Shown here: one piece after another, positions 50,405-55,188 of the stretch
How positions within the stretch are numbered: the stretch's first letter is position 1
Layout: every line of letters begins with the position of its first letter
Source of the DNA: Pseudomaricurvus alkylphenolicus
GTDB taxonomy: Bacteria; Pseudomonadota; Gammaproteobacteria; Pseudomonadales; Cellvibrionaceae
Length of the DNA: 64,000 nt
Reading direction: 5' to 3'
Assembly: GCF_011683955.1 (NCBI RefSeq)
Contig: NZ_JAAQPI010000002.1
Span: 262,157 to 326,156, forward strand
Program-made: the position numbers and the translations under genes
Notes under the pieces: model-generated
What the model was told of the DNA's origin: nothing
The model's database searches: none
What the model saw: the letters and a program-made list of their open reading frames with translations, nothing else

Positions 50405-51061
50405 TTAGAACTCCATTTCCGGAACCACTTCCGGTACCACCAGTTCACCGGCAGTTTTCTGAACAATTTCGTCAACCGAGATGCCTGGTGCACGTTCCTT
50501 CAGCCAGAACTTACCGTCAGCGATCTCGACGTAAGCCAGGTCAGTTACCACCTTTTTGATACAGCCGGCGCCGGTCAGGGGCAGGGTACACTGGGGTAGC
50601 AGCTTGGACTCTCCGTGCTTGGACGCATGGGTCATGGTAACGATGATGTTGTCAGCACCGGCCACAAGATCCATCGCGCCGCCCATACCTTTGATAAGCT
50701 TGCCCGGAATCATGTACGAAGCAATATTGCCCTGTACATCCACTTCAAACGCACCGAGCACGGTCAGATCAACGTGACCACCACGGATCATGGCAAAGGA
50801 CTCAGCGGAAGAGAATATGGAAGCGCCGGTGATCGCTGTGACAGTCTGCTTACCGGCATTGATCATGTCGGCATCCACTTGGTCGTCGGTGGGAAAGGGC
50901 CCCATACCCAACAGCCCGTTCTCGGACTGCAACATTACTTCCATGCCCTCAGGCACATAGTTGGCGACCAATGTGGGGATACCAATCCCCAGGTTAACGT
51001 AGTATCCGTCCTGAAGTTCACGGGCCACACGCATGGCCAATTGTTCGCGGGATAAAGACAT
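50405..51061 (-). CDS. scoB: 3-oxoacid CoA-transferase subunit B
   Basis: 218 residues. Family I CoA-transferase beta chain: VNLGIGIPTLVANYVPEGMEV near residue 20 and the catalytic Glu in the QSENGLLGMGP motif near 46; GAFEVDVQGNIASYMIPGK is near 103. With subunit A it activates acetoacetate to acetoacetyl-CoA using succinyl-CoA. TGAGGAGAAA precedes the ATG, 11 bases after subunit A. Confidence 0.94.
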   Translation of the reverse strand: MSLSREQLAMRVARELQDGYYVNLGIGIPTLVANYVPEGMEVMLQSENGLLGMGPFPTDDQVDADMINAGKQTVTAITGASIFSSAESFAMIRGGHVDLTVLGAFEVDVQGNIASYMIPGKLIKGMGGAMDLVAGADNIIVTMTHASKHGESKLLPQCTLPLTGAGCIKKVVTDLAYVEIADGKFWLKERAPGISVDEIVQKTAGELVVPEVVPEMEF

Positions 51062-51072
51062 ATCGTTTCTCC

Positions 51073-51774
51073 TCAGGCCTCACGCACGGTGCGCTGTTCA
51101 ATACGTTTTTCAAAGGTGCCCTTGATCAGGCGATTCACATAGATGCCGGGGGTGTGGATCTGAGTGGGCTCCAGTTCGCCGGGCTCGACGATCTCTTCCA
51201 CTTCCACCACGGTGATCTTGCCAGCAGTCGCAGCCATGGGGTTGAAGTTCTGCGCAGTGTGACGGAAAACCAGGTTGCCGTAGCGATCGGCCTTCCAGGC
51301 TTTGACAATGGCAAAGTCGCCGGTAATGGACTCTTCGAGGATATACTTGCGACCATTGAATTCCTTAACATCCTTGCCTTTACCCACTTCGGTGCCATAA
51401 CCGGTAGCGGTGTAAAACGCCGGGATGCCCGCGCCGCCGGCACGCATCTTCTCCGCCAGAGTGCCCTGAGGGGTCAGCTCCACTTCGAGGTCACCAGCCA
51501 GCAGCTGCTCTTCAAACAGCTTGTTCTCGCCTACGTAGGAAGACACCATTTTCTTAATCTGGCGATCTTCCAGCAGTACACCGAGGCCAAAGCCATCCAC
51601 GCCACAATTGTTGGAAACAATGGTCAGCTCACGGGTACCCTTGTGCTTGATTTCATTGATCAGATTCTCAGGTATGCCGCAGAGACCGAATCCGCCGGCA
51701 ATGATGGTCATGCCATCTTCCAGACCGGCCATCGCCTCTTCGTAACTGCCCACCACTTTGTCAAAACCGGACAT
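51073..51774 (-). CDS. scoA: 3-oxoacid CoA-transferase subunit A
   Basis: 233 residues. Alpha chain signatures: [19 protein letters not shown] near residue 28, the [13 protein letters not shown] block near 52 and [20 protein letters not shown] near 118. It is first in the two-gene operon, with GGGAGG before the ATG. Handling the acetoacetate made by LiuE is the likely job. Divergent from the LysR gene, which is its probable regulator. Confidence 0.94.
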
Positions 51775-51865
51775 GGCGTCCTCCCAGAATGATTAAATCG
51801 GCTTGTGTTCGTTCAATGATGTTTAGAATGAGCCAGCCTCTTATATTTATCAAATCGAAATATTT

Positions 51866-51881
51866 CATTAATTAATAAATG
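51866..51881. promoter_or_regulatory. Near-palindrome in the scoA/lysR promoter region
   Basis: CATTAATTAATAAATG is symmetrical apart from one mismatched position pair. It lies in a very A/T-rich 150-base divergent region and is a candidate LysR-type binding site, but such symmetry is easily met by chance in A/T-rich DNA. Confidence 0.3.
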
Positions 51882-51924
51882 TTTTAAAATAATAAGACTC
51901 CAACCAATCCATCGGATCTATCCC

Positions 51925-52860
51925 ATGCCCAATGGCTCCTTCAATCCCAACAACATTACACTGAAGCAGGTCCGTGCCTTTGTCGCCGTGGCTCGCAGCC
52001 GCAGCTTTGCGGAAGCAGCGGCCCAGATACACCTGTCGCAGCCGGCCTTGAGTATTGCTATCAAGACCCTTGAGGACACGCTAGGCGGTAAACTTCTGTC
52101 CCGCACCACCCGTACCTTTGCCCTGACGCCCGAGGGCGAGAGCTTTTACCCCACCGCCCAACGCCTGTTGTTGGAGTGGGATCACGCCCTGGTGGATCTG
52201 GGCAACCGTTTTGCCCTTAAGACCGGTCGTATCACCCTCGCCGCCATGCCGTCTTTTGCAGCCAATCTGATGCCCCAGGCCTTGTTCCGGTTTCGCCAGC
52301 AGCACCCCAATATCAGGGTGGCATTACACGATGTCATTGCTGAAGAAGTGGTCCGGATGGTGCGTACAGGTCGTGCGGAGATCGGCATCAGCTTCGACCC
52401 TGGACAGCAAGAGGACCTGCTGTTCACGCCACTGTTTGAAGACGCCTTTGTGGTGGTATTACCGGTCGGTCACCCCCTGGAACCGAAGGCAGAAGTGGAT
52501 ATTCAGGCTCTCGGCGAATGGGATTTGATCACCCTGCAGGCCCCCTCCCAGGTCAGGGAGTTGATCGCGACAACCCTGCAACAGAATCAGCTCAGATTCA
52601 GTCCGGCGCTCGAAGCCCATCAGTTGGTAACCATCGGGCGTATGGTGGCCAAGGGTATGGGCATCAGCCTGGTACCGGCACTCTGCCAACAACAAATGTG
52701 TGAACTCGGGGCCATTTGTCGGCCCTTGAAGAACAATGTGTTAAGGCGTCAGGTCGGCGTATTGTCGAGAAGGCGTTACCCCCTGTCCGCCGCTTCAGAC
52801 GCACTGCTTGATATTCTGGTGGAAACCTTTGCCGATCTAGAAACCCAGGCTTCGGATTAG
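51925..52860 (+). CDS. LysR-family transcriptional regulator
   Basis: 311 residues. N-terminal helix-turn-helix (about 8-67): ITLKQVRAFVAVARSRSFAEAAAQIHLSQPALSIAIKTLE. A periplasmic-binding-protein-like effector domain follows (about 95-300). Divergent from scoAB, so control of ketone-body use in response to a pathway acid or CoA ester is likely; the effector is unknown. The ribosome-binding site is weak. Confidence 0.9.
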   Translation: MPNGSFNPNNITLKQVRAFVAVARSRSFAEAAAQIHLSQPALSIAIKTLEDTLGGKLLSRTTRTFALTPEGESFYPTAQRLLLEWDHALVDLGNRFALKTGRITLAAMPSFAANLMPQALFRFRQQHPNIRVALHDVIAEEVVRMVRTGRAEIGISFDPGQQEDLLFTPLFEDAFVVVLPVGHPLEPKAEVDIQALGEWDLITLQAPSQVRELIATTLQQNQLRFSPALEAHQLVTIGRMVAKGMGISLVPALCQQQMCELGAICRPLKNNVLRRQVGVLSRRRYPLSAASDALLDILVETFADLETQASD

Positions 52861-53614: not shown

Positions 53615-53860
53615 CGCCTTTACCTCCCGTTCGCTTGTGGGGTGTTCCATAAGTTTAACCCCACACCTCCAAAGCGGCCAGTTTCAGTGGACCTGCGGGT
53701 TTGAAACCGGAATTAACACTCGCCTTGCACAGAGTTAACCCTCTCCGACAAACCTGGACAGATCTTTACAGTTGCTAAGCCTACTTAGGATTCAAATCCG
53801 TAGACTGTGTTTCAACGGTTAAGCAATCACCGACACACACCACCAAAGAGGATATACAAC

Positions 53861-53947
53861 ATGGCTATCATCGCACTGACTTACACCACCACCTTCGCCC
53901 TGCTGGGCATGATCGCTGCTGACGACCTGGCCGCAGCCATCAAGTAA
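53861..53947 (+). CDS. Tandem hydrophobic micropeptide, copy 1
   Basis: 28 residues: a short hydrophobic stretch (residues 2-20, opening AIIALTYTTTFALLG) fit for one membrane helix, then the shared MIAADDLAAAIK end. Strong AGAGGA lies 8 bases before the ATG, and codons are those of well-expressed genes. It is the first of three adjacent paralogues (next starts 118 bases on). I recognise no family. The coding case rests on three copies that keep frame, start, stop, ribosome-binding site and the IAADDL motif while varying at nucleotide level. Confidence 0.8.
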   Translation: MAIIALTYTTTFALLGMIAADDLAAAIK

Positions 53948-53978
53948 GCCATTAACGAAGACCAAAGGAGATATTGAA

Positions 53979-54065
53979 ATGACTGCTATCGCACTGACTT
54001 TTGTAACCGCTTTCGCCCTGCTTGGCCTGATCGCCGCTGACGACCTGGCAGCTGCAGTTCACTAA
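53979..54065 (+). CDS. Tandem hydrophobic micropeptide, copy 2
   Basis: 28 residues, opening MTAIALTFVTAFALLG and ending LIAADDLAAAVH. AAGGAGA lies about 7 bases before the ATG. It differs from copy 1 mainly by conservative changes within the hydrophobic stretch, and the LIAADDLAAA core is retained. It follows copy 1 after 31 bases. Same predicted topology: one short membrane helix with an acidic pair at its end. Function unknown. Confidence 0.8.
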   Translation: MTAIALTFVTAFALLGLIAADDLAAAVH

Positions 54066-54110
54066 GACCCGTTAACAACCGAACTCATTGATTAATAAAG
54101 GAAATTGACC

Positions 54111-54200
54111 ATGGCTATTATTGCACTGACCTTCACCACCAGCCTTTCTCTGCTGGGTCTGATCGCCGCCGACGACCTGCGTCCGCTGCTGAAGAAGTGA
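54111..54200 (+). CDS. Tandem hydrophobic micropeptide, copy 3
   Basis: 29 residues, opening MAIIALTFTTSLSLLG, with LIAADDL retained but a different tail, RPLLKK, more basic than the other two. AAGGA lies 8 bases before the ATG. Last of the array, 45 bases after copy 2, and followed 23 bases later by a 12-bp perfect hairpin. The diverged C-terminus suggests the copies are not fully redundant. Function unknown. Confidence 0.8.
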   Translation: MAIIALTFTTSLSLLGLIAADDLRPLLKK

Positions 54201-54223
54201 TCCGCCTGATGCTGCTTAGCAAA

Positions 54224-54257
54224 TCCTGAAGGCCTGCCCCTTAAAAGGCCTTCAGGA
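54224..54257. terminator. 12-bp perfect hairpin after the micropeptide array
   Basis: TCCTGAAGGCCT, 10-base loop, AGGCCTTCAGGA. It is followed by AATTAATTCC rather than a clean T-tract, so it is probably the array's terminator or 3' stabiliser; it could also serve mscS read from the right (TTTGC follows on that side). Confidence 0.65.
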
Positions 54258-54378: not shown

Positions 54379-55188
54379 TTATGCCTGTTTTTCGATGTGA
54401 ACATCCATTTGCGGGAATGGTATTTCAATACCCAGCTCATCGAAGCGAATCTTGATCTTTTCATTAAGATCAAAGAAAACACCCCAATAATCCGGCGTAT
54501 TTACCCAGGGACGCAGCACAAAGTTAACGGAAGAATCCGCCAGCTCGGACACCGCGATGGTCGCAGCGGGATCCTTGAGTATGCGCTCGTCCGCCTCCAC
54601 CAGCTCCTGAAGGGTTTTCTTAACCAGCGCCAAATCAGCGCTGTAGCCCACACCCACGACCATATCCACACGGCGGGTTGGCAACGCAGAATAGTTGACA
54701 ATATTGCCACCCATCACAGCATTGTTGGCTATAACGATGAGCTTGTTGTCACCGGTGGTCAAAATGGTGGAGAAAATGGAGATCTCCTTTACAACTCCTG
54801 ATGCCCCACCGGCCTCAATAAAGTCACCCGCTTTGAAAGGACGGAATAGGATCAACAGCACACCGGCAGCAAAATTGGCCAGAGAGCCTTGCAGCGCAAA
54901 ACCAATTGCCAAGCCTGCAGCACCAATGACGGCCACAAAAGAGGCGGTTTGAACACCCAACTGCCCCATCGCTGCAATAATCACCATGGTAAGCAGCGCG
55001 TAATAACTGATATTGCGTGTAAAACGGGCTACCGTGGCATCAACATTTTTGGCCGACATGGTCTTTTCCATGGTATCGGCGATTAAATTCGCCAACCACT
55101 TACCAACGATGTAGACCACCACCGCAAGGGCGATTTTGATGGCGTATGACGTCACCAGATCCATGATTCCATCGACATTGGTATCCAT
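54379..55188 (-). CDS. mscS: Small-conductance mechanosensitive channel MscS
   Basis: 269 residues. Three membrane helices (about 15-40, 58-80, 85-115). The pore helix carries the Gly/Ala pattern AVIGAAGLAIGFALQGSLANFAAG. The cytoplasmic beta/alpha-beta vestibule (about 120-265) follows. It releases solutes under hypo-osmotic shock. AGGAGATATT precedes the ATG. It converges with the micropeptide array. Confidence 0.95.
   Translation of the reverse strand: MDTNVDGIMDLVTSYAIKIALAVVVYIVGKWLANLIADTMEKTMSAKNVDATVARFTRNISYYALLTMVIIAAMGQLGVQTASFVAVIGAAGLAIGFALQGSLANFAAGVLLILFRPFKAGDFIEAGGASGVVKEISIFSTILTTGDNKLIVIANNAVMGGNIVNYSALPTRRVDMVVGVGYSADLALVKKTLQELVEADERILKDPAATIAVSELADSSVNFVLRPWVNTPDYWGVFFDLNEKIKIRFDELGIEIPFPQMDVHIEKQA

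Follow-up and report, generated by a model that had tools for sequence, protein, structure and literature searches.

Three micropeptide genes in tandem

The DNA analysed here, termed the window, is a 64-kb stretch covering positions 262157-326156 of contig C23 of an 8.88-Mb genome. Its plus strand carries three adjacent short genes, defined by sequence, homologues and selection, at 53861-53947 (28 residues, MAIIALTYTTTFALLGMIAADDLAAAIK), 53979-54065 (28 residues, MTAIALTFVTAFALLGLIAADDLAAAVH) and 54111-54200 (29 residues, MAIIALTFTTSLSLLGLIAADDLRPLLKK). Each gene has its own ribosome-binding site in the sequence, i.e. AGAGGA at 53847-53852, AAAGGAGA at 53964-53971 and AAAGGAAA at 54097-54104. 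The first-pass annotation had described three frames of 28, 28 and 29 codons with ribosome-binding sites, the motif IAADDL common to all copies, differing tails (AAAIK, AAAVH and RPLLKK) and a 12-bp hairpin at the array end, and all of this is found in the sequence. The hairpin is located at 54224-54257 of the plus strand (-22.7 kcal/mol, z -5.35) and is directly followed by AAATTAATTCC in place of a T run. As it lacks the T run and is not among the entries of the terminator scan, it is not recognised as a normal intrinsic terminator; the orthologue in genome G003 has a similar hairpin, followed by TTTTT. A promoter-like site at 54092-54121 lies ahead of copy 3 (the scan found two sites, with 1.0 expected by chance), and thus a single transcript for all three copies is not certain.

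A fixed filter, devised after the array had been seen (ATG, 22-35 codons, a good ribosome-binding site and a hydrophobic 19-residue stretch), gave three matches in the whole window, exactly the three array frames, vs. a mean of 0.1 and a maximum of 2 in 100 dinucleotide shuffles of the window, none of which had three matches within 300 nt. Common codons, another feature proposed for the array, are used in copies 1 and 3, whose codon adaptation of 0.76 each is near the values of six neighbouring genes (0.63-0.80) and above the maxima of 500 uniform-synonym versions (0.63 and 0.52, respectively); this applies less to copy 2, with a moderate adaptation of 0.59 (uniform-synonym versions: mean 0.42, maximum 0.68). 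The openness of the ribosome-binding sites is 0.55-0.63 in the array vs. 0.40-0.58 in the six neighbouring genes. The array peptides may be well expressed, as the first-pass annotation proposed.

According to Pfam the seven neighbouring genes encode two CoA transferase subunits, a LysR-type regulator, DUF3301 and DUF4124 proteins, an MscS channel and an Smr protein; neither cydAB nor kdpABC is among them. The gene next to the array, coding for the MscS-type channel, is located on the minus strand (54379-55188). The LysR gene (51925-52860) lies 1 kb upstream of the array on the same strand, i.e. the array is not divergent from a LysR gene, and it is of a kind unlike the LysR partner of the class B genes described below. 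Together with the two CoA transferase genes it occupies 50405-52860, and G002 and G003 have a similar group close to their class A gene.

Residues 1-19 of the peptides have a hydropathy of 1.8-2.2, and for the 31-residue orthologue from Pseudomaricurvus sp. HS19 one helix comprising residues 2-28 is predicted (mean pLDDT 87). As this prediction was made for one orthologue from a single sequence, the model says little beyond the helix. The array peptides probably sit in the membrane. The best match among solved structures, cytochrome oxidase subunit 3 (E 1.1), is regarded as chance.

A family of micropeptides under purifying selection

Homologous frames occur in five or more families of the order. 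With a single peptide as query and E values up to 10 accepted, 12 of 58 genomes gave matches; those under E 0.01 are from the own genome and four genomes of the same genus. A profile of 12 peptides detected relatives in genera g1, g6, g10 and g24 of the host family (E 2.6e-9 to 1.6e-15), most of these strong matches being source sequences of the profile, with new ones in G147, G148, G149 and G150. Relatives occur in Pseudomaricurvus sp. HS19, Aestuariicella hydrocarbonica and a Cellvibrionaceae metagenome-assembled genome, and weaker homologues in other families, several of them at the same position beside a LysR gene. The pattern of the family is LxxIAxxDL.

Weak profile matches were inspected singly for a minority only. 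Matches of the first profile up to E 1 that lie inside frames of several hundred residues (approximately 500 in genus g4) are unrelated proteins, and a candidate in G248 was dropped as the peptide is part of a 106-residue frame. G677 encodes a member-like peptide, with no LysR of the class B kind seen in its 11 kb, and two other loci, L121 (G860, MEIMYGAMVVTLILLAAIAREDLISSQR) and L123 (G254, MIMSIMIPVTLALFAALAYEDC), encode family-like peptides with no LysR seen on the same stretch. The pattern ATTGCNGCNGAYGAYYTN had no match in the own genome owing to a wrong codon choice in the pattern; pattern searches gave 23 matches in viral contigs, none of them a relative, and no match in plasmids.

The amino acid sequences are under purifying selection, as indicated by dN/dS values and by the codon positions at which changes occur. 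Among the pairs listed, finite dN/dS values lie between 0.04 and 0.38, a 0 being given where synonymous sites are saturated, and the array copies compared with each other give 0.30-0.36. Between copy 1 and its G003 orthologue 15.5 of 22.3 synonymous, but only 4.5 of 58.7 nonsynonymous sites have changed, and the differences at codon positions 1/2/3 are 5/1/14 (7/4/12 for copy 1 vs. copy 3 and 7/3/11 for copy 1 vs. copy 2). More than half of the changes are at third positions in all seven close ungapped pairs. Pooled pS exceeds pooled pN in class A (0.72 vs. 0.36), class B (0.80 vs. 0.37) and family f41 (0.74 vs. 0.25), with the caveat that the peptide motif served as the anchor of these comparisons, so that a low pN is favoured for distant pairs. 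The homologues and the purifying selection bear out the earlier proposal of real peptides, and the claim that the copies arose by duplication stands.

The peptides had also been said to match no recognised family, which agrees with our database searches. For four peptides the best Pfam match was DUF2107 (E 0.039, 14.5 bits vs. a cut-off of 27.5), NCBIfam gave no match and PHROGs a single one (E 0.15, for a G318 peptide). Among the literature matches listed, full texts aside, no account of this micropeptide family was recognised. Judged by sequence, the peptides constitute an undescribed family of predicted single-helix micropeptides that is kept by selection in related bacteria.

The copy number varies: there are three copies in the genome of the window (G000), two with own promoters in G014, G148 and G150, two in G010 and four in G318. 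Expansions in four lineages (G000, g10, G010 and G318) suggest that selection may act on dose or variety.

Class A genes stand alone behind a common promoter element

Class A, which includes the window array, was found in 14 of 144 host-family genomes (genera g1, g10, g22 and g26), among which its distribution is patchy. Class A genes stand alone behind a common promoter element, which in the window is located at 53764-53806 of the plus strand and was recognised in an alignment of 17 upstream regions of class A genes, some of them near-copies from related genomes. These regions share a block ending CTTTACC, CTTGAACC, ACTTTAG and a -10-like TATACT. From the consensus TTTAC-N5-TTGAA-N5-TTTAG the copy in the window has diverged, having CTTTAC, CTAAGC and CTTAGG blocks at a spacing of approximately 10 bp and 20 bp between the -35-like block and TAGACT.

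With up to three mismatches allowed, the promoter pattern has 14 matches in 11 of the 144 genomes, all 14 preceding a class A peptide, and the reversed control has one match. A relaxed pattern gave nine matches in seven of the 14 class A genomes, each at a known class A promoter. Neither pattern matches at the arrays of G000, G001 and G002, whose element became apparent only on alignment, and the element of the window is absent from the entries of the sigma-70 scan. A MerR reading of the 20-bp spacing was rejected, no consistent palindrome being visible by eye; the 10-bp repeats might be those of a CpxR/OmpR-like response regulator, which we take as a lead only. On the sequence evidence, the frames are conserved as protein and belong to one family, whose class A members have this promoter element in common.

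No conserved partner adjoining the class A genes was found. An mscS gene lies within approximately 2.5 kb of the class A gene in four of the five class A genomes of the window's genus, but not in G005, nor in two g10 loci inspected. G001 and G005 contain class A, but no LysR orthologue at 1e-85. The 3' regions of class A differ between genera, and no RNA base-pairing segment was found for the class A array.

Class B genes are divergent from a LysR gene

In the second setting, class B, which accounts for many members of the family, the peptide gene is divergent from a gene for a LeuO/BsrA-like LysR. The genome of the window contains this arrangement as well, at C23:360429, outside the window and 44 kb from the array. 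With the class B LysR, none of the 25 NCBIfam models listed comes near its cut-off, the best scores being those of BsrA (125.6 vs. 480) and LeuO (106.4 vs. 262). Profile searches detected this LysR in 27 of 194 genomes of the order at 1e-75, 18 of 144 host-family genomes at 1e-85 and two of 185 genomes of the class, one of them the own genome.

Scanning 55 LysR loci for short frames with a ribosome-binding site, a default position being used for the six in which the LysR start was unlocated, gave a profile match at E <1 in 24, i.e. 22 at E 0.0035 or better and two weak ones, L139 (0.28) and L145 (0.76). Fifteen of the 22 loci have peptides from the profile or shortened forms of them, four of these loci (L177-L180) sharing one peptide, and seven are new (L128, L130, L131 with four frames, L132, L134, L135 and L148). 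Four further loci (L159-L162) yielded one weak match (E 0.96) unlike the micropeptide family, so that the count is 24 of 59 LysR loci, two of them weak. At the f40 loci L154-L156 a short hydrophobic acidic frame without a profile match is found at the place of the peptide, and in the LysR tree the proteins of these loci cluster with those from the genus of the window (support 100/100). LysR paralogues L194-L198, L200 and L201 had no peptide match. On contig C11 of the window's genome there are two further convergent LysR paralogues (L158, L200, L201), whose matched parts are separated by approximately 60 bases and beside which no micropeptide was seen.

The LysR tree comprises 41 of 53 rows, as 12 rows, six of them peptide-bearing, were lost to the protein-recognition filter, by which L200 and L201 also appear identical; the near-copies L178 and L179 had been excluded beforehand. 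In these 41 rows no single origin of the peptide-bearing arrangement can be seen: the peptide-bearing rows do not form one clade, 15 rows requiring five changes, at least three of them forced, and two f4 rows are placed among LysRs without peptide.

In g1 and g10, CAGTCAGTTT or a close variant of it recurs in the class B 3' regions, along with a CU-rich stretch. The predicted class B transcript of G026 and G061 has almost nothing past the frame. In G318 (family f41; L131/L120) four tandem homologues are divergent from LysR, each with a promoter-like region and a terminator-like hairpin, as judged by eye.

Related LysR loci without the frame

Eleven LysR loci (L185, L189, L191, L136, L138, L141, L143, L144, L137, L140 and L142) have a divergent promoter-like region and mostly a terminator, as judged by eye, with no matching frame in the scans; L144 is the least clear of them, and the LysR gene of L143 has an in-frame stop. 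Five of these are f40 loci (L136, L137, L138, L140 and L142), and in their alignment CCAGGTCC is invariant in all five. For L137, L140 and L142, 78% of 439 positions agree from promoter to terminator vs. 32% of 174 positions thereafter. The divergent RNA of f40 comprises approximately 120-155 nt from promoter to terminator, and short non-family frames are present in some loci, the longest having 56 codons (L140), with none in common. The conservation up to the terminator and the lack of a common frame make it likely that the LysR-divergent transcript of f40 is a conserved non-coding RNA. The other six frameless loci may encode small RNAs or be remnants; L185 and probably L189, both of genus g26, contain two tandem frameless units.

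Rfam gave nothing at threshold in 21 loci, all eleven frameless ones included. Sub-threshold matches (five in 17 loci and six in four loci) are regarded as chance. Those in L129, L137, L140, L142, L143 and L177 share strand and side with the divergent transcript, belong mostly to small-RNA or leader families, and are probably due to terminator hairpins.

Discussion

We consider it rather probable that the three duplicated genes form a small operon encoding membrane micropeptides with a single helix and an accessory or regulatory function. In such an operon a regulator acting on the class A element would start a transcript of approximately 450 nt, and each cistron would be translated from its own ribosome-binding site. 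Residues ~2-20 would span the inner membrane as a helix, with the acidic pair and the following leucine at the helix edge, and the small residues at positions 13, 16 and 19 may pack against a partner helix. The peptide might tune how active or stable a membrane protein is, or join it as a micro-subunit, and extra copies would provide more peptide or a mixed set. A membrane micro-subunit or regulator is our best guess for the role of the peptide. The micro-subunits CydX and KdpF have approximately 30 residues and one helix, as predicted for the peptides discussed here, but the array is not located beside their host operons and has no Pfam or NCBIfam match.

Short hydrophobic peptides are also typical of type I toxins such as Ldr, Ibs, TisB and DinQ, the first two of which occur in tandem copies. 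The array peptides might accordingly be membrane-damaging and held down by an RNA, as size, hydrophobicity and repeated tandem duplication would allow, and when the class B 3' region is paired with the start region of copy 3 or of the G003 gene, the pairing beats all but one of 200 shuffles in each case. However, the other eight of ten comparisons show ordinary pairing, 23 to 198 of 200 shuffles giving values as low, and the scan lists no promoter-like site for the minus strand of the array. The ribosome-binding site is usually hidden in the messages of type I toxins, whereas the openness of the array sites is similar to, or greater than, that of the neighbouring genes. Moreover, the conserved acidic motif behind the helix is unlike the end of most type I toxins. 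We regard a toxin function as unlikely.

In a second alternative, equally doubtful in our view, the RNA is the main actor, i.e. the transcript is regulatory and the peptide secondary. The eleven frameless loci, the f40 RNA, conserved without a frame and with its invariant core, and the 3' motifs common to class B within g1 and g10 are in line with this. On the other hand, class A is conserved as protein, its third codon positions vary and its 3' regions diverge between genera, the class B frame is followed by almost nothing in G026 and G061, and none of the 21 loci contains an Rfam family at threshold. Attenuator leader peptides or chance frames, as short frames followed by a hairpin might suggest, are very improbable, since the next gene is on the opposite strand, leaving nothing directly downstream to attenuate, and since homologues, selection and shuffles exclude chance.

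Beyond the membrane micropeptide operon proposed for the array, we tentatively suggest, at somewhat below an even chance, an order-wide LysR-linked module, in which one short transcript carried a membrane micropeptide, an RNA function or both, and in which these were separated repeatedly; the window array would be an amplified, peptide-only branch. The discovery of the f40 RNA made such a module more probable to us. In three f40 genomes one LysR copy faces the conserved frameless RNA and another one faces a short hydrophobic frame, and in genus g26 the frame is missing from the LysR-side transcripts, the peptide being encoded behind a class A promoter.

LysR regulators with a divergent small RNA are known from GcvA-GcvB and OxyR-OxyS, which have the same layout as class B and the frameless loci. 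Our system differs from them in its LysR, far below the NCBIfam cut-offs of the 25 models listed, in having a micropeptide partner at 24 of 59 loci (two weak), and in the array itself, which is not divergent from LysR. According to its published description, VcdRP of Vibrio cholerae is a dual-function RNA with a 29-residue protein, VcdP, which binds citrate synthase, and vcdRP is repressed by CRP (PMC8672173). VcdRP resembles our system in being a short RNA with a frame of approximately 29 codons, and class B may also carry an RNA function. It differs in that the array peptides are predicted hydrophobic single helices, whereas VcdP binds citrate synthase, and in that class B adjoins a LysR gene, whereas vcdRP is under CRP repression.

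Taken together, these data add a conserved peptide gene family that is too short for routine annotation, occurs in two regulatory settings, an unusual organisation, and has been duplicated repeatedly. As the LysR-side transcript persists without the frame in some relatives, the loci offer natural cases for the conversion between coding and regulatory RNA. Finally, at two loci of family f4 (L133 and L146) CTCCCTGTCCAGGCCGACAG is present in the 3' region past the peptide frame and resembles the core of the f40 RNA.
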